The notes beneath the pieces were generated by a model, which searched no databases, was not told the DNA's origin, and was given only the letters and a program-made list of their open reading frames with translations. Of a DNA stretch of 64,000 nucleotides, positions 44,112 to 61,635 are shown piece after piece. The translations under genes and the position numbers were made by a program. Numbering within the stretch: position 1 is the first letter of the stretch; every line of letters begins with the position of its first letter. Location: the NCBI RefSeq assembly GCF_016807805.1, contig NZ_CP063362.1, positions 2,345,001 to 2,409,000 on the forward strand, in the 5' to 3' direction. Source of the DNA: Xanthobacter dioxanivorans. GTDB taxonomy: Bacteria; Pseudomonadota; Alphaproteobacteria; Rhizobiales; Xanthobacteraceae.

Positions 44112-44142
44112 CTTTGGGATGGTGCTGCGAGAGAGGATTGAA
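44112..44142. repeat. attL (copy of tRNA-Thr 3' end)
   Basis: A 31-bp sequence identical to 61553-61583. It contains the last 20 nt and CCA of tRNA-Thr plus 8 bp beyond, without the rest of the tRNA. It marks the left end of the integrated element. Confidence 0.9.
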
Positions 44143-44203
44143 TTCAAAAATGAACGGGATAATATATTGAAAACAATGAAGAAAAAATATGAACGGAGGT
44201 ATT

Positions 44204-44232
44204 TTGGACGCTTGGACGGGAAGGTTTTGGAC
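44204..44232. repeat. three TTGGAC repeats, candidate left integrase arm sites
   Basis: TTGGAC at 44204-44209, 44212-44217 and 44227-44232, all in the same direction, 62 bp inside attL. A similar triplet lies inside attR. Spacing and position fit arm-type integrase sites. Confidence 0.55.
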
Positions 44233-44333
44233 AATTAACATGGATGTTATGTTATTTTAGGTTTGATCTGCGTCCGTCTCGCCCTCTTTGCCGTCCTTGC
44301 AGTTACGAAAGGTATGGGTACAGTTCGCTAGGG

Positions 44334-45206
44334 ATGGGCTTCTGGGCTAGGGAAATGCTTGATTTTTCGTCGATGGGGTTTGATCGCGCGCTGGGGATCA
44401 TTGGCCTTGTAGTCGGCATATTATCTATATGGCTTGCTCGGCACTATTATAAAAAGAGCCTTGTTACAAAGATCATTGGTTTTTGCGTTACGGAACCTAT
44501 TCGACTTTCTACGTCTTCTGACGTTAAATCGTCCGTCGATGGAGAAATTTACGACTATTTAGAAAAAAGATACTATTTATTGTGGAATAAAGGGTCGTCG
44601 GCGATCGAGTATAGCGATTTTATTTCAGATATACAAATTAAACGGGACGCTGAAGGCGAGGAAGAGCATATTGTAAGGGTTTCAATTGTAAAAAAGGATA
44701 GTCTAGTTGATATAAAAGAGATGAAAGACGGGTCCTTTAGGCTGAATTTGCTTAGACCCGGCGAAGCGATTGTATTTTGCGTATATTATAGAGAGAAAAA
44801 TTTCATGCCGACTTTGTATATATCAACAAAAGTAAAAGAGATGGTTCGTCGTGAATTCTTTACGATTGACATTATGCGATACATCGGCGCATTTTTGGCA
44901 TCCATTTTTGCTCTTTCTGCTGTGTTGACCGATTTTTTTGGAGCTTTTTCAATTGATGATAATGTAATTAAATATTTTGAAAATAATTATAGCAAACCTG
45001 TTCTCGGCGGAATGGCGCTTGTCGCGCTGTTTTCGATGTTTGGAGCGATTATTGCAATTGGATATCTGGCGAATTATATTTTCAAATTACTTATCTGGCG
45101 AAATAGATCTGGAATAGTTAACGACTACGCAGCGGTTTATTTATCAACACTGAATTTGAAGCACAACGATGTTTGGAGATATTACGATATAAAGGATTTG
45201 GGCTGA
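44334..45206 (+). CDS. AT-rich three-span membrane protein, element cargo
   Basis: Unknown protein of about 290 aa (320 aa if the ATG at 44244 is used; those extra residues are not protein-like). One span near the N-terminus (LGIIGLVVGILSIWLA), a soluble central domain of ~130 residues, then two spans near the C-terminus (IGAFLASIFALSAVL and ALVALFSMFGAIIAIGYLA). Far more AT-rich than the surrounding genes. It lies next to attL, on the strand opposite to the late genes, a usual place for cargo such as defence or exclusion genes. No catalytic motif is visible, so any such role is a guess. Confidence 0.7.
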   Translation: MGFWAREMLDFSSMGFDRALGIIGLVVGILSIWLARHYYKKSLVTKIIGFCVTEPIRLSTSSDVKSSVDGEIYDYLEKRYYLLWNKGSSAIEYSDFISDIQIKRDAEGEEEHIVRVSIVKKDSLVDIKEMKDGSFRLNLLRPGEAIVFCVYYREKNFMPTLYISTKVKEMVRREFFTIDIMRYIGAFLASIFALSAVLTDFFGAFSIDDNVIKYFENNYSKPVLGGMALVALFSMFGAIIAIGYLANYIFKLLIWRNRSGIVNDYAAVYLSTLNLKHNDVWRYYDIKDLG

Positions 45207-45355
45207 GGTGGCGCCAGAAGAGGCCAGTCCACCAGCCCACGCCGACCGCAAGCGTCACACTTCAGGCACGCGGGCACGTCTCGCGCTTTGAGGTGGAGGA
45301 TGGTCGCCGGGCGTGCCATGCCTGACCAATGGACAAATAGGGAACATTCTCAAGC

Positions 45356-45387
45356 TGAAAAAGGCGGCACCGGGGAGGTGCCGCCTT
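45356..45387 (-). terminator. rho-independent terminator, end of minus-strand small-gene cluster
   Basis: AAGGCGGCACC (45361-45371), a 5-base loop, GGTGCCGCCTT (45377-45387). Read on the minus strand the stem is followed by TTTTTC. It would end transcripts of the 45400-46465 genes. Confidence 0.85.
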
Positions 45388-45399
45388 GCTGGTGCAGAA

Positions 45400-45681
45400 T
45401 TACGGCTCGATGAAACGAACTCCATCCTCATATGTGTAGCACCGGGCGCCATCGGTCAGGATGTACACGGTCCCGCTATCGCCGCCGTCGCCTGCCGTGC
45501 CGGTGAAGGGCAGATCGTCGCCCTCCGAGCGAGCGACGCGGATACCGGCACGGTCCTCCCGCACATCGAAGGTGCCGGGGAGGGGTTCGCGCTGGCGAAG
45601 CTTCCGAGCGATCGCTGAGGCATCTTCGGCGGACACCGGCCGCAGGTTGTGCAGGGCTTCGTCATCGATCAGGTAGGTCAT
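45400..45681 (-). CDS. hypothetical element protein (93 aa)
   Basis: Unknown. Acidic, soluble, with a C-terminal strand-rich part (VYILTDGARCYTYEDGVRFI). Start ATG 45681 with a purine-rich AAAGGA upstream. Last gene of a minus-strand cluster and closed by the hairpin at 45356-45387. Confidence 0.65.
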   Translation of the reverse strand: MTYLIDDEALHNLRPVSAEDASAIARKLRQREPLPGTFDVREDRAGIRVARSEGDDLPFTGTAGDGGDSGTVYILTDGARCYTYEDGVRFIEP

Positions 45682-45739
45682 TTAACAGGTCCTTTGCGTG
45701 AGATTGGGAGTTTGGAGGGCGTCACTTGGCGCCCTGGGG

Positions 45740-45898
45740 TCAGTCGAGCTCGGCGAGGAGCGCGTCTAGCTCCTCGTCTGAGAGGTCGGGCGGCCGATCA
45801 GGTTGAAGGGCCTTCGGATCGGCGTTCGCGATCTCGGCGAGGTCGGCGCGAAGAGCCGCATCCGCGTCAGGCTCTGCCTTCGTCGCTTTCTCGCTCAT
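45740..45898 (-). CDS. small acidic protein (52 aa)
   Basis: A short gene: ATG at 45898, TGA at 45740. It begins MSEKATKAEPDADAALRADL and ends DEELDALLAELD; strongly acidic and helical. Its start overlaps the stop of the upstream basic protein gene by 4 bp (ATGA), typical of coupled phage genes. Function unknown; the acidic/basic pair may bind each other. Confidence 0.6.
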   Translation of the reverse strand: MSEKATKAEPDADAALRADLAEIANADPKALQPDRPPDLSDEELDALLAELD

Positions 45899-46134
45899 GG
45901 GTGCGCGCCGGCCGGATCGAGCACGTTCAGAAGCCGATCAACATCGGGCTCAGGAAGCCTCTCGATACGTTTCTCAAGTGCTCTGAGGTTCGCCGCACGC
46001 ATCTTGGCGCGGCGCCTGCGTTGATCCTCGCGCCAACGGCGCCGTCTCAGGTCTGGCGACAGTTGAGCGATGTAACGGGCCTGCGACGCGCGGAAGTACG
46101 CGCGCCGTTCGTCTGTTGAGAGGTCTTTGAGCAT
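45895..46134 (-). CDS. small basic protein (79 aa)
   Basis: Highly Arg-rich helical protein (RRRRWREDQRRRRAKMRAAN) of a type that could bind nucleic acid. Starts at ATG 46134 and is coupled to the acidic 52-aa gene. No family is recognised. Confidence 0.6.
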   Translation of the reverse strand: MLKDLSTDERRAYFRASQARYIAQLSPDLRRRRWREDQRRRRAKMRAANLRALEKRIERLPEPDVDRLLNVLDPAGAHP

Positions 46135-46225
46135 GGGTCGTCCTGCGTCGTTTCACTGACAGGACATTCATAGCGGCCGGATCGATGCGCTCGTTCGATT
46201 TCGTTCACGAATCCGTGATGTCGAA

Positions 46226-46465
46226 TTACCGGGCCGGGACCATTGCTGCCCAACGCTCGCCACCAGCCGGCAAGGGGTTCGCTTCCTCGAAATGATCGCG
46301 GGCCTCAAAGCGGGCGATGGACGCCGGAACGATGCCAGCGTGTTCGGCGAGGAACGCGGCCACGTCACGGGAGTCCAGACGGCTGGCAAAAGGCTCCGGG
46401 AGAAGAGCCGCCAGGCGCTGCACGATCTGCGCGTGAACATGATCCGGAAGATAGATGTTCGTCAT
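46226..46465 (-). CDS. hypothetical element protein (79 aa)
   Basis: Begins MTNIYLPDHVHAQIVQRLAA, resembling a short ribbon or helix protein that precedes phage early genes. Soluble. It is the first gene downstream of the control region (46466-46747), whose inverted repeat could control its promoter. Function unknown. Confidence 0.55.
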   Translation of the reverse strand: MTNIYLPDHVHAQIVQRLAALLPEPFASRLDSRDVAAFLAEHAGIVPASIARFEARDHFEEANPLPAGGERWAAMVPAR

Positions 46466-46545
46466 CTGGTGTATTCCCTGCGTTTGATCGAGAGAATCGC
46501 AACGTACACCAGACGTAATAGCTTGTAAAACAAAGAAAAACTTCA

Positions 46546-46589: not shown

Positions 46590-46647
46590 TTAAGCGGGCC
46601 GGAAGTCCCTAGGGTTCGCCGCAGGTGCCTCGGGAGCCGGAGAGTTC

Positions 46648-46856
46648 TAACCGGTGAAAATGTGTAACGCCGCTCAGGAATCTAGAAGACTCTTAGAATC
46701 TAAAGAGTCCTTATATACTTGAGAAACGCGTTACAGTATTTCACCGGTTAGAAACCAAAAGCATCCTCCGGCTTGTGGCTAACCGGCTGTGATTCAATGA
46801 AAACACCCTCCCGGCTTCCTTCACCGGTTTGCCTAACCGGTGAAATCCTGTAACGC
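46648..46856. repeat. three iteron-like 23-bp repeats
   Basis: TAACCGGTGAAA-N3-TGTAACGC occurs at 46648-46670 (+), 46728-46750 (- orientation) and 46834-46856 (+), with all fixed positions identical. An inverted half copy TTCACCGGTT precedes the third (46820-46829). The second overlaps the stop, and the third lies inside, the adjacent 201-aa gene. They may bind a replication initiator or a late-gene activator. Confidence 0.75.
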
Positions 46857-47353
46857 TCCCACACTCCGGCTTGCTCCAACGCTTCTAGCCATCCGAGCGC
46901 GGTCTGGCCTTGCCGGACGGTCCAAGCCTTCCCGGTTCGTGCGGCCATGGCTTCAGCCATTTCCCGATGCGTCGGAGCCTTCCCCGTCTCCGCAAGGTGC
47001 GCGGCGTAGAGCGCGCGCGCGGCGCCGATCTCCTTTGCCCGCTTGCGCAATTTCCGCTGCGGCCTGCCGTCCTGTGCCAGCCAAAGGCGAAGCGCTTGCA
47101 TCTCGCATCGCAGGCGGTCTAGGTCCACCGGCTGGCGCGTCCAGATCGGTTTCAGCGCCGCACGGTGGCGTTCCACACGCGCGCGGGTTGCCTCCTTCCG
47201 GCGATCTGCCGAAAGGCGCTGGCGGGCTTCCTTGTTGATTTGCGCGTTGTGTTGCTTTCGGTCGCGGTGTTGCTGTTCGCGGCGGTCCCAAAACTCGCGA
47301 AAAATTTCGTAGTTCTCGCGCACTCCGGCGAGATTGCTGCTATACTCTGTCAT
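46748..47353 (-). CDS. hypothetical protein with winged-helix-like C-terminus (201 aa)
   Basis: The N-terminal ~110 residues are charged and helical (many R, E and Q). Residues ~125-175 (APTHREMAEAMAARTG, then TALGWLEALEQAGVWERYR) look like a winged helix as in RepA or regulators. The gene encodes part of one 23-bp repeat in its own C-terminus, and another overlaps its stop. It could therefore be the protein that binds the repeats. No primase or helicase motif is seen. Start ATG 47353. Confidence 0.6.
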   Translation of the reverse strand: MTEYSSNLAGVRENYEIFREFWDRREQQHRDRKQHNAQINKEARQRLSADRRKEATRARVERHRAALKPIWTRQPVDLDRLRCEMQALRLWLAQDGRPQRKLRKRAKEIGAARALYAAHLAETGKAPTHREMAEAMAARTGKAWTVRQGQTALGWLEALEQAGVWERYRISPVRQTGEGSREGVFIESQPVSHKPEDAFGF

Positions 47354-47429
47354 GTCGAAGCTGTTTCCCCATGCTTTGACTGGCGCGGTCGCTCCTCCGC
47401 GTTAACTCTGTGACTGCTGACGATGCCCT

Positions 47430-47468: not shown

Positions 47469-47542
47469 TCGATGGCGCTACGCGGAACCCGTGAGCGCCA
47501 CCAACCGGGTATTATAGCGGCGAGTGAGCCGGGCGCTTTTTG

Positions 47543-49546
47543 CTATCGGTACTGATCGCGATGCAGAATGCCTCTCGGGCGCTGCTGCTGCCGCACGAAC
47601 TCGAACATTTCCTCCCGGAGCAAATTGCGCAGTCCCGTAACCATTTCGTCTGATAGCGCTCGGTTTTCCGAGAGCGAACCGCCGCCCCCGGTGACGTTCA
47701 CCACGGGCGCGAAGGTGATGGCCGGCGCCGCAGGCTGTGCCGCCTGAACGTTGACCGTTGGCGGCCGGATCGAGCGCAGTACATCATGGGGAACGATGCC
47801 GCCCGACTTGCCGGGCGTGAAAAGCTCCGGTCCCTTCTCGCCCACCAGATAGGACTTGCCGCGCTCCACATCGCCACCACCAGCGCGGGCGCCCCCGAAC
47901 ACGGCGCCGACGATACCGCCGCCCCCGCTGGTGCCGAACATGCCGGCAAGGGGGCCGGTGCCCAAAATCGCAGCCTGAAGCGCCAGCTTAATCAGGTTGT
48001 CGAGCACATCGGCGAGCACGTCATTCAGGGAGCGGGCGCCGGTCACAAGCCCATGGATCGAGTCCGACAACTGGCTCCCGACTTCCTGCTGTAGCTCCCG
48101 GTTCGCCTCCATCTTGTGTTCGGCGTTCTGAAGCTCCTGCGCTGCGCGGGCGTGCGCGTCGGCCTCGGCTTCGATCTCGGCGCGAAGCTGCGGCGTGATG
48201 GTCTTTCCAGCCTCACGCGCGGCGTTCAGGAGCCGTTCAACGTCCAACGCCTTCTGCTTCTCAAAGGTGCTCCGGCCAACGGCCGCAGCTTCGATCTGAA
48301 GCACGCGCGTTTGTTCGTTCATGGCGCGGGTCGCGCGCTCATATTGGTCAATCGACTCCTTGCCGTCCTTCCCGCCCACAACGGGGAAATCCGCCGCCTT
48401 GATGGGCTTCGCCTTCTCCTGCGGCCGGTAATTCCGATCAGGGTCGGAGCCGATGCCGCCACTGCCGGCGAGCTTCGGGGCGGGCGGGAACAGATATTCC
48501 GTAACGGTGTCTGTGCCGAAGATCGCCTGATTCAGCTTCTTGCCGAGGTTCAGGCCGTTGTCGGAAATGTACTTCTGAAGATCGGCGAGCTTTTGCAGAA
48601 GGCCGACAACCTCCTTGATGGGGTCGGTCGCCTTTTGAAAGCCCTCGGTCATGCTGTCGAGTTCGGCCACAAGCGCCTTGGAGAAGCCGGCCGACTTGTC
48701 CACCTCGCCCGTCATTTTCAAAATCGCATTCAGGATTTTGGTCGTGGCCTGTTCAATGGTCGTTTCGGCCGATGCCGCCTGTTCGCGAAGCTCGCCGACG
48801 CCAGCCTGAAAGCCCCTGAAAAACGCGACGTTGCTGATCTTCCCGTCAGTCACCAGAGCCTTGAGCTTGCTGACGGAACCTGCGGCCTCTTCAATCCCGC
48901 GCGCAACCGCCTGCAGGATCGGCCGGGCGGCCTCGTTCACGCTGTTGAATTCCTCCGCCTGAACGCGCGAGGAGCCGAGCAACTGCGACAACTGAAGGAG
49001 CGCACCGGATGCCTGTTCCGGCGAGGTGCCGGCGACGCGCAACGCGGTGGCGATATCCTCGGAGAACTGAATCAGTTCGTCACGCGTGGCGCCAAGTTCC
49101 TTGGCCGATTGCGTCGCCCTGCCGAACAGCGTCACCAGCGATTCAAGCGGCACGTTCTGCCGCTGGGCCGCAACAAAGAGCCGATCAAGGGTGTTCGTGA
49201 GGTCCGCACCCGAAAGGCCGGCAACCTTCAGCGCATTGTTCAGGGATTGCCACTGATTCAGGTTGTTCACGATGGCGCGGCCTCCGAACGCCGCCGCGAC
49301 CACGCCGCTAAGGCGCGCCGCCGCTGCCGCGAAGGTGTCGCCGCTCCCGATATCGGCAAGGCTCTTGCTGGCCTTGCTGCTGGCCTCTGCCATGCTCTTT
49401 TCAATGCGGGATTTCGCCCGATCCGCGCGCTTTTCGATGTTGCCTAGGGACTGATCGGCAACCTGTTGCGAGCGCCTGAATCCGCGTTCCAACGTCGAAT
49501 TATCGACGCTAAAGCCAATTTCGAGTTTGCCGTCGTTCTCTGCCAT
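47543..49546 (-). CDS. phage tail tape measure protein
   Basis: A 667-aa protein. The N-terminus has tape-measure-type coiled coil (FSVDNSTLERGFRRSQQVA), a central conserved region (LGATRDELIQFSEDIATALR), hydrophobic/Gly-rich spans near 560-590 (GTGPLAGMFG, GGGGIVGAVFGGA) and the usual SYLVGEKGPELFTPGKSG near 600. It follows the terminase directly, without a tail tube gene before or minor tail genes after. Short for a siphophage, so the tail would be short too. Confidence 0.88.
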   Translation of the reverse strand: MAENDGKLEIGFSVDNSTLERGFRRSQQVADQSLGNIEKRADRAKSRIEKSMAEASSKASKSLADIGSGDTFAAAAARLSGVVAAAFGGRAIVNNLNQWQSLNNALKVAGLSGADLTNTLDRLFVAAQRQNVPLESLVTLFGRATQSAKELGATRDELIQFSEDIATALRVAGTSPEQASGALLQLSQLLGSSRVQAEEFNSVNEAARPILQAVARGIEEAAGSVSKLKALVTDGKISNVAFFRGFQAGVGELREQAASAETTIEQATTKILNAILKMTGEVDKSAGFSKALVAELDSMTEGFQKATDPIKEVVGLLQKLADLQKYISDNGLNLGKKLNQAIFGTDTVTEYLFPPAPKLAGSGGIGSDPDRNYRPQEKAKPIKAADFPVVGGKDGKESIDQYERATRAMNEQTRVLQIEAAAVGRSTFEKQKALDVERLLNAAREAGKTITPQLRAEIEAEADAHARAAQELQNAEHKMEANRELQQEVGSQLSDSIHGLVTGARSLNDVLADVLDNLIKLALQAAILGTGPLAGMFGTSGGGGIVGAVFGGARAGGGDVERGKSYLVGEKGPELFTPGKSGGIVPHDVLRSIRPPTVNVQAAQPAAPAITFAPVVNVTGGGGSLSENRALSDEMVTGLRNLLREEMFEFVRQQQRPRGILHRDQYR

Positions 49547-51163
49547 TTATGCCGCCTGATCTTTGTAGAAGTCGCGAATGAATTCAGCATCATCGATGGC
49601 GCGGCCGGGCAACTCGCTGTCAAATGCGAGCTTTACGGCCATGGCCGCAGCAACGGCGCCGTCGATTTTCAGTTCAGACTTGCCCTTGTGGAATCGTTTG
49701 TAGCCGTCTGCCGTCTTCACGGTGTGGACGTTCTCAAAGCACCAGCGCAGGACGGGGTTGCCGCCATGCTGAAACTGTCCGGCAACGATGGCGCGCTCTA
49801 GCTCATGCACGGCCGGGCACATGCTGCCGTTTGCCTGCGAGAACTGGAATACCGGCAAGCCCTGATTTGTCAGCGTCGCGAGCGTGGGATTGGCGCCCTT
49901 CGGATCAACGCCGATCTGTTGCACGTTCAGCTCGCCGCAGATTTCCACAAGCCGTCGATGGAAAAACTCATAGTCAATCGCATTGCCGGGCGACTTCTCA
50001 ATGAAGCCGGCATCCGTCCACTCGCGATAGCCTGCCGTGGCGCGCTTCATAAGCTGTTCTTCGGGAAGGAAGAACCAAGGCCGGACCAAGTATCCGCCTT
50101 TTCCGTCACGCCAAGCGGCGACAATGCAGGTCATGTCATAAACCTGCGAAAGGTCGATTCCGAGCCAGCACGGTTCGGCCTTCAGCGCCTTGAAATCGAT
50201 CTCATCGGCGCCCTTGTCATACACGCCCATGTCAACGAACGGGGCGGCCGAATTGTCGGCCCAAACGTTCAGGTTGTACTGAAGGAAATTGGCCTTGGTG
50301 CTGGGGACGCTTTCAGCCTGCTTCGCCTGATCCCGCATGGCGGAAATCGACTGATAGGGCGGCACGCATGAAAGGCCGGGGTTCACGCGGAACCATACCC
50401 GTTCGTCCTTCCAATCTTCGTCGGCGCTGGCCTCGAAAAGCACCGGGAGAACGGTCTGATTCACCTCGTCGCCGCGAGCGATGCGCCGGGCCTGCTCATA
50501 CTGAGCCCACGCGATATGCTCGCGTCCCGCTCCTGCCGTCGATGCGAGGATGACCAGTGGGTCTTTCTTAACGATCGCACTCTCTAGAGCATTCCACAGC
50601 TTGAGCGTTTCCCAGCTATGAAGTTCGTCACAAATGATTAGGGATGGGCTACGCCCGTGCTGCGTTTTCCCATCACTCGCGATCGCTTCGAAAAATGTAC
50701 CATGCTTTTTCGAAATGATCTTGTGCCGATAATCGAGCAATTTACTCACATTTATGAGCCGCTTATCCATCCGGATAATATCGACGGCTTGTTTGTGAAC
50801 AAGCGCGGCCTGTTTGCGATCTGCAGCCGCAGCAATAACCTCACTAAACGGCTTCCGCTCAGGTCCAAGGGTATGCAGTAGCGCGAGGGCAGCGCAGAGG
50901 GTCGTTTTCCGGTTGCCGCGAGGCAGGAGCATGGGAACCCGTTTTACGATGCGGGTCCCGTTAGGATGGCGCGGGCCATAGATGGCGAGCACAAGCCGCT
51001 CTAGCCACGGGTCCACCTGAAAGGAGTTGCCGGGTGAGGTGCTTTCCGGGTGCCGTAGCGCCTTTAGGAAGCGCACCGCACGCGCGCCATATCCAAAGGG
51101 GTCGGGAATTGGGCTGCTATCAAAGAGCCAGGTCGGATGAGTCTTCGGAATCATCGTCTTCAA
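49547..51163 (-). CDS. terminase large subunit
   Basis: The packaging motor, 538 aa. ATPase domain: Walker A-like LLPRGNRKTTLCAAL (~residue 82), Walker B LIICDELHSW (~residue 178), then coupling ILASTAGAG. Nuclease domain: GIDLSQVYDMT, VDPKGAN and a late Asp in KIDGAVAAAMAV. It belongs to the HK97/P27-linked group. It overlaps the small subunit gene by 44 bp. Complete. Confidence 0.93.
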   Translation of the reverse strand: MKTMIPKTHPTWLFDSSPIPDPFGYGARAVRFLKALRHPESTSPGNSFQVDPWLERLVLAIYGPRHPNGTRIVKRVPMLLPRGNRKTTLCAALALLHTLGPERKPFSEVIAAAADRKQAALVHKQAVDIIRMDKRLINVSKLLDYRHKIISKKHGTFFEAIASDGKTQHGRSPSLIICDELHSWETLKLWNALESAIVKKDPLVILASTAGAGREHIAWAQYEQARRIARGDEVNQTVLPVLFEASADEDWKDERVWFRVNPGLSCVPPYQSISAMRDQAKQAESVPSTKANFLQYNLNVWADNSAAPFVDMGVYDKGADEIDFKALKAEPCWLGIDLSQVYDMTCIVAAWRDGKGGYLVRPWFFLPEEQLMKRATAGYREWTDAGFIEKSPGNAIDYEFFHRRLVEICGELNVQQIGVDPKGANPTLATLTNQGLPVFQFSQANGSMCPAVHELERAIVAGQFQHGGNPVLRWCFENVHTVKTADGYKRFHKGKSELKIDGAVAAAMAVKLAFDSELPGRAIDDAEFIRDFYKDQAA

Positions 51164-51494
51164 TCATGGTGGGGCGGCTGCGGCTCATGGGCGTCAGTCC
51201 GAGTTCCGCCGCGATCTGGCGCGCCGTCGCCAACGCCTTGTCCTGTGCGCGGCACAGGGGCAGGCTGAACGCGGCCTGCAACGTGCGCTCGATCTCACGG
51301 GCGCGGCCTTGCGCGATGCAGTAGTTTTCAAGCTGGCCTAGGTCGGATTGCGTGAGAATGCGACGCTCGATCAGCGGCCGGATGCAGCGCTTCCATTCCT
51401 TTTTCGCGTCCGGGGAGAGCCACGCGGGCGGGGCCGGGGCTTTCGTCAGGGCGCCGGCTGTGCTGGCGATGGTGCTGGGCTTCCTTCCTTTCAC
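51120..51494 (-). CDS. terminase small subunit (P27 family)
   Basis: A 124-aa DNA-recognition subunit. The core PPAWLSPDAKKEWKRCIRPL and LTQSDLGQLENYCIAQGR is the P27 signature. GTG at 51494 is chosen because GTGA overlaps the stop of the preceding gene by 4 bp, as elsewhere in this operon; the longer frame to 51581 is shadow. Confidence 0.88.
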   Translation of the reverse strand: MKGRKPSTIASTAGALTKAPAPPAWLSPDAKKEWKRCIRPLIERRILTQSDLGQLENYCIAQGRAREIERTLQAAFSLPLCRAQDKALATARQIAAELGLTPMSRSRPTMIEDDDSEDSSDLAL

Positions 51495-51823
51495 GGGCCG
51501 ATCCTCTTCGCGTCGATCTGGATGGCCTGCCGCCTGCCGAGCACCTTCAGGCCGACGATGTTGAAGCGCTCGCCGCCCCAAATCAGCCGGTCGGTCATCT
51601 TCAGATCGGCCACATAGCGAATGAGAAAGCTGGCCTTGATGGTGATCCGGGAGCCGGCTTCCGTGGGCTCTTCCTCCCGAACGTCTTCGAGGAGTTCGGC
51701 GCGAATATCGAAGCGCGGCGTCCAGACAGTCACCTGATTGCGATAGGCACCGGTCGCGGCCTCGCCGCGTTCAATGGTGAGCTTTTCCAAGAGGGCGCCA
51801 GCGCGCACGGCTACATCACGCAT
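51491..51823 (-). CDS. phage head closure / head-tail adaptor protein
   Basis: A 110-aa SPP1 gp16-type protein that closes the connector after packaging. Features: LLEKLTIERGEAATGAYRNQ at the start, then IRAELLEDVREEE and DRLIWGGERFNIVGLK. ATG 51823 chosen; 8-bp overlap with the upstream gene, 4-bp overlap with the terminase gene. Confidence 0.8.
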   Translation of the reverse strand: MRDVAVRAGALLEKLTIERGEAATGAYRNQVTVWTPRFDIRAELLEDVREEEPTEAGSRITIKASFLIRYVADLKMTDRLIWGGERFNIVGLKVLGRRQAIQIDAKRIGP

Positions 51824-52250
51824 CGGTCGCCACCTCCTGCATGACCGCATCAAGCGCAACGGTCGCGTGGGCGAGGTCTTGTTCGCTGGCGTCGCGGTCG
51901 CTGGTGACGCTCACGCCAAGGCCATGAACGATCCAGCCGTCACCACGCCAAGGCGCCCATGTCGCACCGGAGAGGGTGCGGGCAATGGCGCCTGTGATCT
52001 GGCGACAGAGAACCGCGTTGTCTTCGTCGCGAGTCCAAACATCGAGGTCTAGAAACACCTTGTGGTGCCACGTCTCGTAATGGTCGGGCGGGGTCCAATC
52101 CGCGTTGCCGATCTGCACCAGCGGGCCGGCATCGGGCTCCGAATAGGAATCAACGAACCGTTCTGGCGGGCACAGATCGGTGAATTCCGGCGACGCCAGA
52201 AGGCGTTCCGCGACCATCTTGGTAAGGGCTAGAACGGGATCGAGGCTCAT
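51816..52250 (-). CDS. DUF3168-type tail completion protein
   Basis: A 144-aa protein resembling gp17-like tail terminators (DUF3168): PVLALTKMVAERLLASPE, then ADWTPPDHYETWHHKVFLDL and TVALDAVMQEV. It should cap the tail or join it to the head. The start overlaps the gp10-like stop as ATGA. Confidence 0.75.
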   Translation of the reverse strand: MSLDPVLALTKMVAERLLASPEFTDLCPPERFVDSYSEPDAGPLVQIGNADWTPPDHYETWHHKVFLDLDVWTRDEDNAVLCRQITGAIARTLSGATWAPWRGDGWIVHGLGVSVTSDRDASEQDLAHATVALDAVMQEVATDA

Positions 52251-54569: not shown

Positions 54570-55145
54570 CTAAGCCGTCATGTTCTTAAGTGTTTCAAAG
54601 GCTTGGCGATCAAACGTGTTGCTCAAGGCGGCTTCGGCGCGTTCATCGTCGTTCGGCTCATAGCCGGGTTGTGCCTTCCGCCAGACACGCATTGCCTGGG
54701 CGATCTCATGGGGCGTCGCGCGCCACGCCGCATCGGGGCTCCAATGCAGGATGCCGGTCGCGAAGCCGAACAGTTCGGCGAGGGCTTTGTTGAAGGCGAC
54801 GGGCCGGCTCGGCTCGCGCGAGGTGCTGGCGCGGGCGTCGGGATCGGCGCCGGCAAGCCGCAGGGTGAACCGATAGAGCGGCAGGGAAACGGCTTCCATG
54901 CGTTTGCGGAGCGGGCCGGAGCCAGTCAGCCACGCAAGCGCACGGGCGCGCTGTTCGCCATCTTCGATGCCGTAGGCGAACAGATCGGCGACGATGCCGA
55001 GGTGTCCCTTGAAGAGCTTGCCGCAGAAATCGGCGGGCTCCGGGCCGTGCTCCTCTGCGATGGCGAGCGCGCACCGCAGGGAGGGCCGAAGCCGGACGGT
55101 GAACCCGTCCAGCTTCAAGGTTGTCTCTTCGTTCAGAAGGCGCAT
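54570..55145 (-). CDS. tail assembly chaperone-like protein (GTA/TAC_6-like C-terminus)
   Basis: A 191-aa protein. Residues ~125-160 (ELFGFATGILHWSPDAAWRA, then TPHEIAQAM) resemble the small Phage_TAC_6 chaperones known from gene transfer agents. The N-terminal ~100 residues resemble a gpG-type domain (TTLKLDGFTVRLRPSLRCAL). Such proteins load on the tape measure during tail assembly. It is far from the tape measure gene here. Moderate confidence. Confidence 0.6.
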   Translation of the reverse strand: MRLLNEETTLKLDGFTVRLRPSLRCALAIAEEHGPEPADFCGKLFKGHLGIVADLFAYGIEDGEQRARALAWLTGSGPLRKRMEAVSLPLYRFTLRLAGADPDARASTSREPSRPVAFNKALAELFGFATGILHWSPDAAWRATPHEIAQAMRVWRKAQPGYEPNDDERAEAALSNTFDRQAFETLKNMTA

Positions 55146-55148
55146 AGC

Positions 55149-55298
55149 TCACGCCTTAACGAGAATGAGGGCGCCATCGTCGTCCGTTAGAAGGGCGCCA
55201 TTGTCATCCGCGAGAAAGGCGTAACCGGCCGGCGGCCTTGTAGATTCAGGCCGTCGCCGGATTACGCTCAGTTGGAAAATGCAGCGGAACATAAACAT
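55149..55298 (-). CDS. small phage protein (49 aa)
   Basis: From ATG 55298. Ends in GYAFLADDNGALLTDDDGAL plus ILVKA, a repetitive pattern that I recognise from short proteins in phage structural operons. Its gene stops 3 bp before the chaperone-like gene. Role unknown. Confidence 0.5.
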   Translation of the reverse strand: MFMFRCIFQLSVIRRRPESTRPPAGYAFLADDNGALLTDDDGALILVKA

Positions 55299-55308
55299 CG
55301 TGGCTGCC

Positions 55309-55638
55309 TCAGATGGTGATGACCGCGACGCGGTCGCCACGTCGCACGGCAAAGGCCGTGGGCATGTAGCCGCCGACGCGCCATCCGTTACGGATTTGAC
55401 CGCTCGCGGGGACGGCCGCGACGGGTGCAGCGCCCGTCACCACCCACACGTCAGCGTTGCTCCAGATGTTCACGAATCCGAAGCCGTCCGGCGCGTCGCT
55501 CGCCGTCGAAGTGGCGACAGAGGTCGCGCCGCTGGTGACAACCTCTGTCTTCGTCTTTTCGCCAAGGGCGATGCCGGCCGACATACCCTCAGCCGAGCGA
55601 TTGCCGAGCTCGCAAAACGAGATTTCAACGCGCGCCAT
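55309..55638 (-). CDS. hypothetical phage structural protein (109 aa)
   Basis: Beta-rich, Ala/Thr/Val-rich, no charged helices; ends RRGDRVAVITI. Its start overlaps the stop of the 128-aa gene. Position after the capsid suggests a capsid decoration or tail-tube-like protein, but I see no family signature. Confidence 0.6.
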   Translation of the reverse strand: MARVEISFCELGNRSAEGMSAGIALGEKTKTEVVTSGATSVATSTASDAPDGFGFVNIWSNADVWVVTGAAPVAAVPASGQIRNGWRVGGYMPTAFAVRRGDRVAVITI

Positions 55639-56024
55639 CAGGCCACCGGACGCGAAGCGGCGTCGCCCTTCACCAGCACGGCGCCAGCCGCAATGCTGGT
55701 GCCGCTGTTCTTGGTGATGACGGCGCGGACGTAGCGCTTGTGGCCGCGATATCCCACCTTCAGCACCGCGTCGGCCGACAGGCTCGCCGGGAAAGCGCCA
55801 TGCAGGTCCGAGGCGGCAACGTCGGTGAAGTCGCCGGGCGTGGTGGTGTCGCTCTCCTGAAGCTTCGCGGTGAAGTTGCCGGAGCCGGCAACGGCTCCGG
55901 TGTTCAGCACCAGCACGGCGCTGTTGAAGCCGAGGAGGTCGAGGGCCGGGCCGGTGGCGGTGGCGGAAAGCACGGCGGGGCCGATGGCCTGAACCACGCC
56001 CACGTTGTTCATGAGGTCACGCAT
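55638..56024 (-). CDS. hypothetical phage structural protein, possible capsid decoration (128 aa)
   Basis: Follows the capsid gene by 16 bp. The sequence is beta-rich with FNSAVLVLNTGAVAGSGNFT and YRGHKRYVRAVITKNSGTS, the pattern seen in small proteins behind HK97-type capsid genes. Role in capsid decoration is an inference from position. Confidence 0.65.
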   Translation of the reverse strand: MRDLMNNVGVVQAIGPAVLSATATGPALDLLGFNSAVLVLNTGAVAGSGNFTAKLQESDTTTPGDFTDVAASDLHGAFPASLSADAVLKVGYRGHKRYVRAVITKNSGTSIAAGAVLVKGDAASRPVA

Positions 56025-56040: not shown

Positions 56041-57198
56041 TCAGGCCGTCGCCATCTTCAGCTTGCGCAGGGCCTTGGCCTGCACCACGCCAGCGCCGAC
56101 ACGGCGGGTCGCATGGATGCGGGTCATGCCTTCGGTGGCGAGAAGGTAGGGATTCGAGAAGGTGGAGAGCGCGAGGCGGTCCACGATGCGATAGGCGGTG
56201 GCGAAGTCGCCAAAGAGGATCGGGAAGGCGTCGGCTTCTGCGTCCGCCATATCCACGGCTTCCACCACGGGCCGACCGAGGATCGTTTCGGGCGTGCTGG
56301 CGGAATAGGCGGGCTGCCACAGGTAGTTGCCGGCACCATCCTTGATCTTGCGGATGGTGGCGAGAACCCTGCTGTTCATGATCCACGTCCCGCGCTGGCG
56401 GTAAGCGGCAGGCATGTCGTACATGAGCGAAATCAGAGCGTCGGCGGAAAGGTTCGTCGCGTGCCCGTTCAGGGTGTGCTGAATGCCCGCATCATTCATG
56501 ATGCCGGCCGGAGCGAGCACGCCGTCGCCATGCAGGAAGGCAAGCCCTTCCTTCACGCCGAAGTCTTCCGCGAGCGCGAGATTCACCTCGGCGAGGGCCT
56601 GCGGACCATCGGTGAGAAGCTGGTTGGAAATATCGACGTGGGTCGTCATCTCGCGGATGACGATTTCGGCCTGCCCAAAGCTGGGCTCCGAACCCTCGGA
56701 AGGCTGGTTCTCACCCTTCCACTTCGCGTTGGTGGTGCCGGTGCGCTTGGGATAGGTGACGCTGGGGGCGCCCGTGGTGCGCACGCTGGCGAGTGCGCGG
56801 ATGGGGGAGAATTCCACCAGATCGCGAATGAATTCGGCGGACACCTCATGCGGGGCAAAGTAGCCGCCAGCGGTGTCGGTCGAAACCGTGAGGGCCTTCA
56901 GTTCGTCGGCCGAGGCCGCGTTGCCGTGGCGAAGGTAGGACGCGAATGCCTTACGCTCGATCTCGCCTGCGTCGGCCTTGCGGTCGGTGATGATGCCGGG
57001 GCGGGACAGCTTGGCCTCTATCTTGGCGAGCGTGGCCTTCACTTCGGAGAGCTCGCCGGCATCGGCGACATTGGCGCTCTTGGTCTCGATGGCCTTCAGG
57101 CGGTCATCAACGGACTTGGTGAGTTCGTCGAGGGCCGCCGTCACAGCGTCAACGGGATCGGCGTCCTTCAGTTCGATGGTCGGAAAATGCAGGGACAC
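56041..57198 (-). CDS. major capsid protein (HK97 fold)
   Basis: A 385-aa capsid subunit. The N-terminal ~100 residues form the delta domain, coiled (TAALDELTKSVDDRLKAIE), removed by the protease. The mature part contains GGYFAPHEVSAEFIRDLVEF, ATVRTTGAPS-like segments, ISNQLLTDGPQALAEVNLAL and LGRPVVEAVDMADAEADAF, typical HK97-fold segments. Directly after the protease gene. Confidence 0.92.
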   Translation of the reverse strand: MSLHFPTIELKDADPVDAVTAALDELTKSVDDRLKAIETKSANVADAGELSEVKATLAKIEAKLSRPGIITDRKADAGEIERKAFASYLRHGNAASADELKALTVSTDTAGGYFAPHEVSAEFIRDLVEFSPIRALASVRTTGAPSVTYPKRTGTTNAKWKGENQPSEGSEPSFGQAEIVIREMTTHVDISNQLLTDGPQALAEVNLALAEDFGVKEGLAFLHGDGVLAPAGIMNDAGIQHTLNGHATNLSADALISLMYDMPAAYRQRGTWIMNSRVLATIRKIKDGAGNYLWQPAYSASTPETILGRPVVEAVDMADAEADAFPILFGDFATAYRIVDRLALSTFSNPYLLATEGMTRIHATRRVGAGVVQAKALRKLKMATA

Positions 57199-57208
57199 GG
57201 GGTTTCCT

Positions 57209-57715
57209 TCAGTGAGAGCGAAGAGCCGAGGCGGCTCGGGTGATGGCCTCGGCGATGGCGAGCACCGACGCGGCGGATTTGGCGGACGTGACGCGCGCGC
57301 CGGGATGGCTGGGCACGGTCACAAGCGAGACTTCCACGAGGTCCAGGGCGGAAATGATCCGCCCACGGGCGCCGACGCGGGGCGCGGCCTTGCGGGTGCT
57401 GAAGCCGATCGAAAGGCCAGAGACGGCGCCGGAGCGCACCAGCGCCCGCACCTCACGGGCGCGGGGCATGTCCTCCACCAGAAGGCGACCTTTCACGACA
57501 AAGCCGGTGGCGGTCTCGGCTGCGCTCTCCCAAACGCCGATGGCGTCGTTCGGGTCGTGGCCGAACAGGATCGGCAGGGGCGTGCGCACGCTGGCGAAGG
57601 CGCCCTTTTCGATCACGTCGCCCACGCGGTCGGGCGTGCCGAAGGGCCATGCAACGCCTTCGATGGCGCCGGTATCGTCAACGGTGAAGGTGGATTTGAT
57701 CTCAAGCCGGTTCAT
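57209..57715 (-). CDS. HK97-type prohead protease
   Basis: A 168-aa serine protease. GVAWPFGTPDRVGDVIEKGAF opens the domain, the His is in LFGHDPNDAIGVW and the Ser region is SGAVSGLSIGFSTRKA. Ends in LVEVSLVTVPSHPGARV. ATG 57715 chosen; GTG/ATG further up adds 6 residues. Immediately precedes the capsid gene. Confidence 0.9.
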   Translation of the reverse strand: MNRLEIKSTFTVDDTGAIEGVAWPFGTPDRVGDVIEKGAFASVRTPLPILFGHDPNDAIGVWESAAETATGFVVKGRLLVEDMPRAREVRALVRSGAVSGLSIGFSTRKAAPRVGARGRIISALDLVEVSLVTVPSHPGARVTSAKSAASVLAIAEAITRAASALRSH

Positions 57716-57953
57716 GCTGGTGCTCCGGCTCAAGATCGAGAGAGTTTAGAAGCTCAACGATGATCTCGCGCTTCCAAGCGGGAGTGATGACGATTTCGAG
57801 TCCACCACTCGGATCATGGGCGAAAGCTTCGTGATGCTTGTCACGGTCGCTCAAAAGCTCTTCGCAGAGCGCTTTGAAGGCGAGGAACACCGGGCCATCA
57901 AACATCCGATCGATGGCGCCACTATCGATTTGCAGCGCCGGGGTTTCACTCAT
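57702..57953 (-). CDS. hypothetical phage protein (83 aa)
   Basis: Small acidic protein (MSETPALQIDSGAIDRMFDG at the start) between the TAC-like and protease genes, overlapping both by 8-14 bp. No family recognised. Codon use matches the operon, so it is probably real. Confidence 0.6.
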   Translation of the reverse strand: MSETPALQIDSGAIDRMFDGPVFLAFKALCEELLSDRDKHHEAFAHDPSGGLEIVITPAWKREIIVELLNSLDLEPEHQHEPA

Positions 57954-58281
57954 CGGCGTTCACCTCCGGCTCGGGCTCGGCTTCGCCATCCCATGCCGCA
58001 GAGAGGATTTCGACTGCGAGGGTGTGAGCCGGCTTCAACGGCGCGCCATCAACGAAAATCTCGATCATGTTTTTCGCGGCCTCCGGGGAGGTGCCGGCGC
58101 CGATCAGGGCAAACCGGATGATCTCGATCAGGTCGCGGTGATGGAAGCGGCCGGAAACGACACGCTGCGAAATCTCGCCGATGCCGAGGTCAAGGCGCTT
58201 CTCCAACTGCACAACCTGCGGCGCCAGATCGAAGGAATATTCGTCATCGCCAAGGAAGCGGTGAATCCGGGTCGTCGTCAC
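57946..58281 (-). CDS. GTA-like tail assembly chaperone (TAC_11 type)
   Basis: A 111-aa protein that resembles the gene-transfer-agent family Phage_TAC_11: FDLAPQVVQLEKRLDLGIGE, then FHHRDLIEIIRFALIGAGTS and a C-terminal acidic tail. GTG 58281 is chosen because it overlaps the stop of the upstream gene (GTGA). It normally lies next to the tape measure; here it sits between portal and protease. Confidence 0.65.
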   Translation of the reverse strand: MTTTRIHRFLGDDEYSFDLAPQVVQLEKRLDLGIGEISQRVVSGRFHHRDLIEIIRFALIGAGTSPEAAKNMIEIFVDGAPLKPAHTLAVEILSAAWDGEAEPEPEVNADE

Positions 58282-58496
58282 TTGCCGGCCTCCGAATGTG
58301 CGGGGGCCAGGTCGTCGGCATTCCACGCGGGAGAGGTGCCGAGGGTGTCGAGGTCCAGCACCACGGGCACGCCGCGCCGGGGGCGGCCGTTGATACCGAG
58401 GGCGTTCAGCCGGCGCAGGGCGATTGAGAACGGGCCGTTGGCCTGCGCAAAGTCGGCCGCGACCTTGGCGTGATTAAGCATTACCGGGAAGTCCAT
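58278..58496 (-). CDS. hypothetical phage protein (72 aa)
   Basis: Small protein overlapping the portal gene end by 23 bp and the TAC-like gene start by 4 bp. RRLNALGINGRPRRGVPVVL is its most distinctive part. No family recognised; real because of the tight coupling. Confidence 0.55.
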   Translation of the reverse strand: MDFPVMLNHAKVAADFAQANGPFSIALRRLNALGINGRPRRGVPVVLDLDTLGTSPAWNADDLAPAHSEAGK

Positions 58497-59745
58497 CGTT
58501 GTTCCGATTGTCCGGGGATGTGGAAGAGGTGGTGTTCGGGTTCACGAACGCCTTGCCGTCCGCGTAGGGCGGCAGGTTCTCGCGCGCGCGGGCCTCATTG
58601 GGATTGAGCACGCGGGCGGTAATGAGCTTGCCGTAGGCGTCGGCACGCGCGGCGATATCCATGCGCGTGAGGTCATCGGCGAGGAATTCAGCGAAGTAGG
58701 TGTCGCGCTCGGCTTCGCTAAAGAGCTTCATCGCGACTTCGTTTTCCCAACGCGCCAGCCAAGGCCGAAGGCTATACGTCAAGAATTCGGCGCCCATTTC
58801 GGAGGTGTTCGCCCACGTCCCGCGCTCAAGGTCAAAGAGCATGTGCGGCGGAACGCGGAAAAGCCGGGCGATCTCGGTGACAGAGAAGCGCCGAAGTTCA
58901 AGGAATTGAGAGTCGACAGAGGTGAAGCTGATCGGAATGTACTTGGCGATTCCGACGCCAATGAGAGCCGAATAGTTGTTCCGGCCGGCAAGGGCAGTCT
59001 TGAGGCCGTCGCGGTTGGCTGTCGTCGCTTCCTTGTTGCTAGTTTCAAGCGAGAACAGGCCGTCCGGCCGGGCACGATTGCGAAAAAGGGCCTTGCCGTG
59101 CTCTTCGAGGAGCATCGCCAATTCGATGGCGCCTTTGCCCTGCTGGATCGGAGAGGCGCCGGAATAGCCGTTCAGGCTCGGCCCCATGAGGTGGAAGATT
59201 TCGGAGGGCTGATAGATGGTTTCGCGGTTGTCGCCGTGGCGCACCTTATACACGGGCGCCCATGTGATCTGATCGAGTTCGACCGTGACGGCGGCAGGCG
59301 AGAGGCGCCAAAGCTCCACATAGTCGCCGGAGCGATTGATCAGGGCGTAGCCGTTGCCGTAGAGAAGAGCGTCGCGGGTAAGCTGTTCTTTGAACCACTG
59401 TGCCGAATGGATTTCGGACACGCGATTGCGTAGGACGCTATAAATCGGATGATCGGTGGCGCGATCCTTGGCGCCGTCTTCACCGCGCTTGTACGTGACA
59501 AGCGGCAACTGCCCAACAGCTTCGGCGATGGCTTGAACTGCCGCCCGCACGGCGGTGCAATTCATTGCCGTCTCTTCATTGACCGTTACCTGAAGGGTGC
59601 CAGCATCGGAGGCCGGCGCGCCGATCAACTGCCAGAGCCAAGCGGCATCGGTGGATGTCAGGGGAGAGGGCGCCGGGCGGCTCGGGGCCGCCTTCACCTC
59701 ATCGGCGGCCTCACGATTTCGACGAAAAAGATCGAAAATTCCCAT
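58474..59745 (-). CDS. phage portal protein (HK97 family)
   Basis: A 423-aa portal through which DNA is packaged. Typical segments: TAMNCTAVRAAVQAIAEAVG, QLTRDALLYGNGYALINRSG, IFHLMGPSLNGYSGASPI, RFSVTEIARLFRVPPHMLFD and LTYSLRPWLARWENEV. Complete. It is the first gene of the late operon, 97 bp after the integrase remnant, whereas in HK97-like phages it follows the terminase. Confidence 0.92.
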   Translation of the reverse strand: MGIFDLFRRNREAADEVKAAPSRPAPSPLTSTDAAWLWQLIGAPASDAGTLQVTVNEETAMNCTAVRAAVQAIAEAVGQLPLVTYKRGEDGAKDRATDHPIYSVLRNRVSEIHSAQWFKEQLTRDALLYGNGYALINRSGDYVELWRLSPAAVTVELDQITWAPVYKVRHGDNRETIYQPSEIFHLMGPSLNGYSGASPIQQGKGAIELAMLLEEHGKALFRNRARPDGLFSLETSNKEATTANRDGLKTALAGRNNYSALIGVGIAKYIPISFTSVDSQFLELRRFSVTEIARLFRVPPHMLFDLERGTWANTSEMGAEFLTYSLRPWLARWENEVAMKLFSEAERDTYFAEFLADDLTRMDIAARADAYGKLITARVLNPNEARARENLPPYADGKAFVNPNTTSSTSPDNRNNDGLPGNA

Positions 59746-59841
59746 TGGCTATAGTGAAACCCGTATCTATTCCCCATTAGAATAGCACGGCAAATCTGCG
59801 TGATATAGCCTTTCCACCTCAGATTTTCGGAAAATCTCTGT

Positions 59842-61470
59842 TTAGGTGGCCGTTTTCTCGCCTTCGTCGTCAACCTTCGCTGTGTAATGGGGCATTTGGC
59901 GGATGGCCGCATAAGCAGCCTTCAAGGTCACGTCGCCATAATCTTCGCCGGCTGTTCACGCTGCGTGCCCCTGAATCTTGTCGATCACACGCGCATCTAG
60001 CCCAAGCTCCCGCGCTACTGTCTTCAGCCGATGGCGCCATCCATGATTAGGGTCTACCTCACGCGAAACGACGTTCAGCGCCCGCACCCACATGGCGAGC
60101 CGGCCGGCGATCTGCTTTGAGGGGTGCGATTTCCCGGTGCGGTCTGGATTGTCGAGATAGAAGAGCGGGCCGTCTGGTGCCGCCTTCACGAAATCCAGAA
60201 AGCCCATTTCGATCAGTTGGGGATGCAGCGGCGCGTCGCGATATTGCCCCGTCTTCACGCTGCCGGCCTCCGGTGCGATGCGCACAAAGGCGATGCCGTT
60301 CTCTTCCCGCACGTCTTGTTTGCGGAGCTGGGTCATTTCAGCGACGCGGGCGCCGGTATGGGCGCAGAGCCACGGCACCCACCTTTTCGCCGCCGTCATG
60401 GGCACCGACTCGCGCGTCCTGGGGTTGTCGGAGGGCTTGGGCTTATGGTCGCGCGCGGCCTTCAGAATGGCGTTGGCTTCCTTGAGCGTGAAGCCCTTCT
60501 CCCGGTTCTGCACCTTTTTCAAAACGCGCACCTTCACCTCGCGCGCCGGGTTCGTCTTCAGGCGGTCGTTATCGACTGCCCACTGAAACACGGCGCGAAG
60601 GGCCGCGATGTTCGTGTCACGAACCGTCTTCGGCGACATGGTGGCGAGCAAGGCGTCTTTCCACGCGACCACATCCGCCTTCGTGAGGCGGCTAGCGTCG
60701 TCGTGTCCGAGGTGCTTGATGAACGCCTTAAAGCCGGGCGTCCAACGCTTCTCCGCTTCGGCGCCACGGCCGGACGCGCGAAGCTCGGCTAGGTAGCCGT
60801 CCAACAGATCGAGAATGCGGACACGCTCGCGTGGGGCAGGGGCGGGCTGGGCATCAGGCTTCAGTGCAGGGTGAGCGGGCTCGGCTTCAGGTTCGCCCGC
60901 GTTGCGCTCGCTAGTGCGCTTCATGACTTCGATCTGCACCCCTGCCAGCGTGCGGGCGATGGCGCGCCATTCGGGGGTGCCGGGTTCGGCCTTCACCAGC
61001 TTGACACGGGCGTGGGCGTCTATCGCCCATCCGATGGTCGCCGCGATCTTGTCGTCTGGTGCTGCGCCGGATGCGACTTCCCGCAGCGCGGCCATATAGG
61101 CCGGAGCAAAGATGCGCTCATAGACGGCCGGATCGAAGCCGGACGATGCGAAGGCTCCGGCATCGCGAAGCGCCGCGTCTAGGTCCAACTCTGATTGGTA
61201 GTGGTGCCGCGCGAGGCTGGGCGTGTCCAAGGCGCGGGAGAGCCGGGGAGGGGCGTCCGTGCCTTGGGCGAGCTTCAGGCGCGCCTCGTCTAGGATGCCG
61301 TGAAATCGCGCGAGCACCGCATGGGATCGGCGCTCGGCTTCTCGCCGATTGCCCCCTAGCGACTCGTGAAGCTCGCTCTTGCCGACGATCTCCCGAAGCT
61401 CCTTCGGTACGCCGATGCGCACGAAAAAGGTGGTGCCCCGTTGCCGTACGTGTGGGGTCTTCGCAGCCAT
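59842..61470 (-). pseudogene. tyrosine-type integrase with in-frame stop
   Basis: Phage integrase for the tRNA-Thr site. ATG 61470 (MAAKTPHVRQRGTTFFVRIG) starts the arm-binding domain; the core domain (~275-505) has the Arg in HTGARVAEMTQLRK, HGWRH (HxxR) and IQGHAA (GH). TGA at 59956-59958 then ends the frame at 504 aa. Beyond it, the same frame continues with EDYGDVTLKAAYAAIRQ, containing the catalytic Tyr, to TAA 59842. CGA to TGA would explain the change. As written, the enzyme lacks its nucleophile. The frame upstream of 61470 runs through attR and the tRNA and is not coding. Confidence 0.85.
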
Positions 61471-61483
61471 GTCCGCCTCGATT

Positions 61484-61512
61484 TTGGACAGTCGTTGGAC
61501 GGAGCTTTGGAC
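61484..61512. repeat. three TTGGAC repeats, candidate right integrase arm sites
   Basis: TTGGAC at 61484-61489, 61495-61500 and 61507-61512, all in the same direction, between the integrase start and attR. They match the triplet inside attL (44204-44232). Confidence 0.55.
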
Positions 61513-61560
61513 AAGAGGTGAGGATTTGCAAGGGTTTCTAGCGTTTGCAACGCTTTGGGA

Positions 61561-61635
<75 letters not shown>

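Follow-up and report, generated by a model that had tools for sequence, protein, structure and literature searches.

The 64,000-nucleotide stretch of the Xanthobacter dioxanivorans genome analysed here (contig NZ_CP063362.1, positions 2,345,001 to 2,409,000; hereafter the window) carries a compact phage-like element of 17,472 bp at positions 44112-61583. We consider it probable that this element belongs to a widespread family of capsid-forming satellites of about 17.5 kb, mostly integrated at tRNA genes, which encode their own head, packaging machinery, tail ruler and tail assembly chaperones, and which would take the tail tip, and here also the tail tube, from a helper phage. Homology predicts that the element encodes a head, a neck, DNA packaging, a tape measure protein (TMP), two tail chaperones and a tail terminator. 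An earlier note on the window, made from its letters and open reading frames (ORFs), had proposed a compact element of satellite type that forms capsids and encodes a TMP and chaperones of its own; profile searches and relatives in other genomes now support that proposal.

The element is enclosed by exact 31-bp direct repeats, attL (44112-44142) and attR (61553-61583), with 33 of 34 bases identical in a longer register. As the earlier note had recognized, the site is a tRNA-Thr (GGT) gene (61561-61635, minus strand; ARAGORN), which the right copy overlaps. The G+C content of the element is below that of most of the surrounding chromosome, and the minus strand carries every assigned gene except ORF 44244-45206, so that coordinates below refer to that strand unless stated. 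Every listed protein of the window was scanned with PHROGs, and part of them with Pfam, PADLOC and NCBIfam. The gene order starts with the portal protein (58474-59745; phrog_12, E=5.7e-95) and continues with a prohead protease (57209-57733; phrog_80, 3.7e-44), an HK97-fold major capsid protein (56041-57198; phrog_10, 2.1e-76) and a capsid decoration protein of 128 aa with a predicted jellyroll (55638-56024), whose nearest named relatives, 76-80% identical, come from Xanthobacter (order Hyphomicrobiales). Four head-tail joining proteins follow: a gp6-like connector (52636-52935; PF05135, 8.6e-11), an HK97 gp10-like neck or tail completion protein (52247-52669; PF04883, 2.3e-8), a tail terminator or gp17-like tail completion protein (51816-52325; PF11367, 9.6e-9; phrog_176, 5e-4) and a head completion (closure) protein (HCP, 51491-51859; PF05521, 7.6e-11). 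The small and large terminase subunits, TerS (51120-51581; phrog_83, 1.8e-26) and TerL (49547-51163; phrog_9, 2.5e-120), come next, and the TMP is last, directly behind TerL (47543-49546, 667 aa; phrog_17300, 8e-76; PF20155, 4.1e-45). Apart from the decoration protein, and together with the integrase discussed below, this inventory had been drawn up in the earlier note, and PHROGs and Pfam bear it out.

Two tail chaperones accompany the TMP, one of the TAC_11 or GTA-gp10 type (57946-58326; PF11836, 6.9e-16) and one of the TAC_6 type (54570-55145, 191 aa; PF09550, 4.5e-6). Among the window proteins, the scans found no tube, distal tail, hub, fibre, lysin or holin gene, and no CI, AlpA/excisionase, primase or helicase gene; within the reach of profiles, the element thus lacks the tube, tip and lysis genes of a complete temperate phage. 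This agrees with the earlier reading, which had seen no tube, baseplate, fibre, lysis, CI, primase or helicase gene and had pointed to the unassigned ORFs as the place where tube, fibre and lysis genes might hide; profile searches of those ORFs found none. Two tube candidates were rejected. The only match labelled 'tail tube' (phrog_8985, E=4.5e-20) falls on the TAC_11 protein, and the Pfam text for Phage_TAC_11 (PF11836) reads 'Phage tail tube protein, GTA-gp10'; the protein nevertheless belongs to a chaperone family, and its AlphaFold model is a beta hairpin with five helices and not beta-rich. PDB searches with it gave no significant match, which speaks neither for nor against a tube. The 128-aa decoration protein has a weak PHROGs match to a major tail protein (E=0.002); its model is a jellyroll like those of capsid-decoration proteins, two of its listed homologues carry the name head decoration protein, and homologues co-occur with a confirmed tube gene in two related elements (G060, G106).

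These results bear on the alternative that the element is a minimal self-sufficient phage, with tube, tip and lysis genes too divergent to be recognized. We find this improbable. Proteins without a family are available for such roles (109, 83, 72 and 201 aa, plus a 320-aa ORF), and genes for a tube, gpM or a distal tail protein are indeed present in some relatives. The structural models, on the other hand, disfavour both the decoration and TAC_11 proteins as tubes, no unassigned ORF matches distal-tail or hub profiles at E 1e-3, and none is long enough for a megatron protein (1155 aa in the Mesorhizobium siphophage vB_MseS-P1, PP232116), a profile for which none of the 23 related elements described below has a match.

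A search for the TMP in 200 relatives gave matches in 23 genomes, that of the window included. Mapping covered 32 loci, 30 of them with a TMP, and bounding direct repeats were found for 23 of these 30, again including the window element; no repeat pair was found at G009C29, G104, G376, G051, G479, L035 and L038, at several of which the sequence ends. The repeats measure 17-67 bp, and 22 of the 23 delimited elements overlap a tRNA gene. Their lengths range from 15,906 to 20,805 bp (median 17,761); since 27-40 kb were examined at nearly all repeat-searched loci, larger elements would have been visible. The earlier note had reckoned with relatives holding some 20 kb more of phage genes; those delimited hold the same set of about 17.5 kb. 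Profiles for TMP, TerL, TerS, portal, protease, capsid, HNH nuclease and connector match in 23/23 elements, and those for gp10, terminator and HCP in 22/23 (all but G223). In all 23, at most 41 bp separate the end of TerL from the start of the TMP, or the two genes overlap. TAC_11 and TAC_6 genes are each present in 18 and the decoration protein in 12; a TAC_18-type chaperone (PF23812) occurs in four, all among the five that lack TAC_11, which brings elements with a tail chaperone to 22. The minor tail protein gpM (Phage_min_tail, a label confirmed on members of the family) matches in seven. Distal tail, hub, peptidase and megatron profiles match in 0/23 delimited elements; in the pooled set, which includes ordinary phage loci, the same tip profiles match 13-21 proteins each. 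For lysis genes the absence is weaker: a single-phage lysozyme probe and family scans of 99 leftover proteins of the relatives found none among the matches listed (25 of 50 PHROG families). Two of these 99 proteins match a tail-fibre family.

Delimited elements occupy several tRNA genes, with differing integrases (scored in 22/23; that of G132, which overlaps the repeat, was found separately). Within the genus, two genomes carry three syntenic elements, one in G005 and two in G009. Those of G005 and G009C29, the latter cut by a contig end, share with the window element both its tRNA-Thr site, where the earlier note had suggested looking for the gene set, and the neighbouring transporter gene. 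The G009C13 copy lies at a tRNA-Leu with a different integrase. The same gene order recurs in another family (G132). One genome (G073) holds a closely related pair (L082 and L084) whose integrase genes differ and whose sites are tRNA-Ser and tRNA-Glu. The tRNA-Thr/potA site itself is variable in the genus (loci L114-L125): G002 and G010 have other integrases there, about 45% identical, and the left flank of the window element was recovered only in G008, where the site is empty, both flanks being present with their aligned ends about 385 bp apart. That the size range stays so narrow across different integrases and insertion sites is evidence for one packaged unit and against chance deletion; it also suggests that each small capsid takes up a single unit genome.

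The association of TMP with TerL was surveyed beyond these elements. TerL matches were found in 30 of 397 genomes of the same order, presumably Hyphomicrobiales, and a TMP is adjacent in 21 of the 29 non-self loci examined (out of 32 non-self matches). On a TerL tree built by a quick method, leaving out L049 and L158 and with L110 and L159 as long branches, the TMP label needs 7 changes, against a shuffled mean of 11.6 (0/500 as low). Among public viral contigs, an alignment scan of IMG/VR gave at least 579 TerL relatives, of which the best 80 were analysed; all IMG/VR counts given here refer to these 80. A TMP follows TerL in 56 of the 73 contigs with enough downstream sequence. The 52 contigs above 12.5 kb have a median length of 17.1 kb: 44 measure 14-21.1 kb, four are shorter and four longer (22.9, 23.1, 35.7 and 65.3 kb, these being examined in part). 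In these 52, profiles match a TMP in 40, a tube in 29, a distal tail protein in two, a peptidase in one, a megatron fragment in one, and a hub or lysozyme in none. By these counts the tail part is graded, a TMP being usual, a tube frequent and a tip rare. Many IMG/VR contigs may be predicted prophages, and so do not demonstrate packaging.

Ordinary phage-type loci are built differently. In 22 such loci (L031-L055 minus L035, L038 and L049; L056-L077 left out), a TAC_11-type gene precedes the TMP in 19, and in 17 the TMP is followed by one or more matches to the distal-tail, hub, peptidase or megatron profiles. The TMP has a median length of 698 aa in the 23 satellites versus 931.5 aa in these 22 loci (Mann-Whitney p ~1e-6, relatedness not being corrected for). 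Of the 347 phage records with a TMP match, none covers 80% of the element TMP. Phage TerL proteins are also distant, the rows listed being about 30-31% identical (30 of 1429 records) and all 1429 below 60%. Three phage-type TMPs that are followed by a distal-tail gene (L019, L028 and L029) match the element TMP in its C-terminal part, within residues 394-621.

Several observations weigh against reading the element as a helper-dependent satellite with its own ruler. The tail part is not fixed in the family: a tube gene is present in 6/23 delimited elements (the label being confirmed by PHROGs in G106, G060, G325, G182 and G194, and resting on the family profile alone in G295), so that the earlier description, tail length and chaperones encoded without a tube, holds for this branch and fails for the family. 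Tube detection itself rests on profiles, which a very divergent tube could escape. Distal-tail genes occur in L035, L215, L224, L225 and L284 (IMG/VR or Jiella loci), and a compact IMG/VR element keeps peptidase- and megatron-like fragments downstream of its TMP (L211:13998-14733), possibly a relic of a full tail module. No TMP adjoins TerL in eight of the 29 loci of the order, in 17 of the 73 IMG/VR contigs, or in 5/5 testable loci outside the order, a sixth having no room for one; because of the last result, a TerL-adjacent TMP may be mainly a trait of this order. Profile scans found no AlpA, Pri-Rep or other replication gene in the window element, whose integrase is cut short. In the host genome, the sole distal-tail (PF09343) and Phage-tail_3 (PF13550) matches lie in a cluster resembling a gene transfer agent (GTA), and no resident helper was seen with these two tip families, other tail types not being sought. 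Finally, no particle, induction or helper was observed.

The shortened integrase and the L211 fragments are what a decayed prophage would lead one to expect, left over from an ordinary siphophage after deletion of its tail, lysis and replication genes. The tyrosine integrase ORF (59956-61605; phrog_1, 3e-32; start uncertain) ends at an in-frame TGA (59958-59956) upstream of the conserved end, which we take to hold the catalytic-tyrosine motif, and the frame is open beyond the TGA. G005 and G009C29 have longer copies, 83-84% identical to it and without this stop; a sequencing error at the TGA is possible. The cut-short integrase probably leaves the window copy unable to excise or integrate by means of its own enzyme. 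The earlier note had kept decay as its alternative, and this is the part of it that finds support. The same core and size nevertheless recur in 23 repeat-bounded elements, the other structural ORFs are similar in length to those of the genus relatives, the gene order is unlike that of the 22 ordinary phage-type loci, 19 of which have the TAC_11-type gene before the TMP, and the phage records do not reach 80% coverage of the TMP. We therefore regard decay as unlikely, and the compact design does not appear to be the product of chance deletion.

The same two tip families raise the question of whether the tail donor is the host GTA and not a phage. GTA clusters are common in this bacterial class, which weighs against the idea; they have tail-tip genes and no integrase or att sites. 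Ours (G000:C1, ~3.635-3.653 Mb; L128, L129) has portal, protease, capsid, DUF2460 and Phage-tail_3 matches, and a TerL_ATPase family search of the host genome returned the element only. The cluster is the one tail-tip locus that the two families retrieved, and the best solved-sequence match of the element capsid is the RcGTA capsid (6tb9, 1.2e-31). Scores for a GTA link are weak, with the TAC_6 protein at E=0.024 against the rcc01693 model and the TMP at E=0.029 against the RcGTA_tape model, both far below the cut-off, and we hold this origin of the tail to be very improbable. Nor is the element itself a GTA by its contents, with an integrase ORF, att sites and, by profiles, no tip genes. That no resident helper was seen does not speak against a phage donor, because EcCIEDL933, a published satellite of the capsid-forming phage-inducible chromosomal island (cfPICI) type, was according to a review mobilized by 0 of 17 resident prophages (PMC11389934).

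For the helper-dependent satellite, which remains our preferred reading, the following course can be proposed. A helper phage would supply induction; on infection, the satellite TMP and chaperones would join the tail-tip proteins of the helper, a step suggested in part by the C-terminal TMP segment shared with the phage-type loci L019, L028 and L029. In elements of the window type, helper tube subunits would polymerize along the TMP of the satellite. The tail would be coupled to the satellite head by the terminator and neck proteins of the satellite, its TerS and TerL would fill that head with DNA, and the helper would lyse the cell. A stronger version, which we put forward tentatively and hold to be somewhat short of even chances, is that the satellite dictates the tail: its chaperones would load its TMP with helper tube subunits, giving particles with satellite head, neck and tail length and with helper tube and tip. 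If so, the joined TerL and TMP would form a cassette of head and ruler that can move as one, and satellites should have shorter tails than local phages.

TMP and chaperones might instead act as an interference device that titrates helper tail proteins, with the helper making the entire tail, as it does for cfPICIs. These reportedly need a helper for tails only (PMC10690885), and interference with tail assembly exists as a defence (PMC11364771). Against this, the TMP is tied to TerL within the structural module throughout the 23 elements, and 22 of them keep a satellite terminator; we give this alternative a low probability.

The window element has further genes. An HNH nuclease with a P-loop part and a repetitive linker (53069-54430; phrog_2323 HNH, 2e-26; phrog_4581, 5.1e-48) contains a long Lys/Pro repeat, and phrog_4581 is named terminase small subunit; the element has a separate TerS besides. 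Three small proteins of the head region have no family: 72 aa (58278-58496; counterparts of about 30% identity in G005 and in the two elements of G009), 83 aa (57702-57953; no PHROGs or PADLOC match) and 109 aa (55309-55638; nothing over the family cut-off in PHROGs, Pfam, PADLOC or NCBIfam); a 67-aa ORF (55149-55352) has a weak coding signal. Behind the TMP, a 201-aa protein with homologues in G005 and G009C13 is a possible regulator (46748-47353; PF01726, LexA-like DNA-binding, E=0.011, below cut-off); as a repressor or Rep it was not retained, having sub-threshold matches only in PHROGs, Pfam and NCBIfam. Four copies of CTAACCGGTGAAA (three exact, one with two mismatches) lie in both orientations at 46647-46845, surrounding the 3' end of this gene, and are possible regulator or origin sites; longer arms were also detected there. 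This palindromic motif was rejected as a conserved origin: at one mismatch or fewer, G005, G009C13 and G132 contain no copy, and the single copy of G009C29 lies outside the core of its element. Small ORFs of 93, 52, 79 and 79 aa without family fill 45400-46465. Beside attL, the AT-rich 320-aa ORF on the plus strand (44244-45206) is possibly a membrane protein (weak phrog_21538 match, E=0.046) and has no Pfam, PADLOC or NCBIfam family; G+C is 41.6% over 44001-45000 versus 69% in the preceding kilobase. Its base composition, opposite strand, position and lack of a curated family make it likely to be recently acquired cargo.

Replication genes are scattered among the relatives. A primase profile matches in 2/23 delimited elements and, beyond these 23, in G104 and G129; primase-type proteins were confirmed in G104 and G073a, G073b has a further profile match, and G194 has a helicase/primase-like protein. 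In 7/23 elements, a protein with LHxHG and GWxxYxxK motifs lies between TMP and att site (L176:4697-5821, L164:5225-6715, L182:5225-6442, L166:5169-6692, L170:6134-7036 and two more); four were scanned, without a PHROG match, and the motifs, which we take to be Rep/HUH-like, make it a candidate rolling-circle-type Rep. A G104 protein labelled AlpA-like by eye has no family match, and the label was withdrawn. An excisionase or regulator PHROG matches four of the 99 leftover proteins.

If satellites keep their own ruler and chaperones, the line between satellite-made and stolen parts would move. Such elements would allow one to ask, in a natural setting, how tail length is fixed and which TMP contacts decide helper range, with a tail length set by the satellite as the testable consequence. 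To find them, one can use the TerL-TMP pair as a simple marker.

Among known systems, the element appears closest in its working to cfPICIs (PMC10690885, PMC10448857, PMC11389934). It shares with them integrase and att sites, even if the integrase of this copy is shortened, and its own portal, protease, capsid, head-tail connectors (the definition of PMC10690885), HNH nuclease, TerS and TerL; searches of it for tail tip and lysis genes were likewise negative. It differs in having its own TMP and two chaperones, TAC_11 and TAC_6, so that the whole tail would not come from the helper, and profile scans found neither the alpA homologue nor the Pri-Rep replication initiator that stand on the cfPICI signature list (PMC10448857), relatives G104 and G073a having primase-type proteins. 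For both reasons we describe it as cfPICI-like and do not file it as a cfPICI. The earlier note had supposed that described satellites lack a TMP, and here it was mistaken: in 2023, putative E. coli satellites were reported that have capsid, decoration protein, TMP and one piece of a baseplate and that lack terminase, protease and adaptors (PMC10448857). These resemble the element in combining capsid and decoration genes and a putative TMP with little other tail, most with a tyrosine integrase near tRNAs, whereas the element has terminase, protease and head-tail adaptors, and a TMP tied to TerL. The Streptomyces satellites MulchRoom and MiniFlayer (PMC10690885) are likewise small, with their own capsid and packaging genes; the tail length of MulchRoom, however, is consistent with that of its helper and is thought to be helper-encoded, whereas here the ruler would be the satellite's own. 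Among alphaproteobacterial siphophages, vB_MseS-P1 for example shares a homologous TMP part and TAC_11, but has 40.8 kb and another order: TerS-TerL first, then from portal to tube, TAC_11, TMP, distal tail, hub, megatron and lysozyme. GTAs of the RcGTA type have related capsid and chaperone families, and differ from the element in its att repeats, integrase ORF and 667-aa TMP. We recognized no description of TMP-bearing, alphaproteobacterial or Rhizobiales satellites of this family in the literature covered, the founding cfPICI and SatelliteFinder papers being outside its scope. As far as our searches reach, what is new is a TerL-TMP unit with chaperones, spread in one order of bacteria at a near-constant element size.

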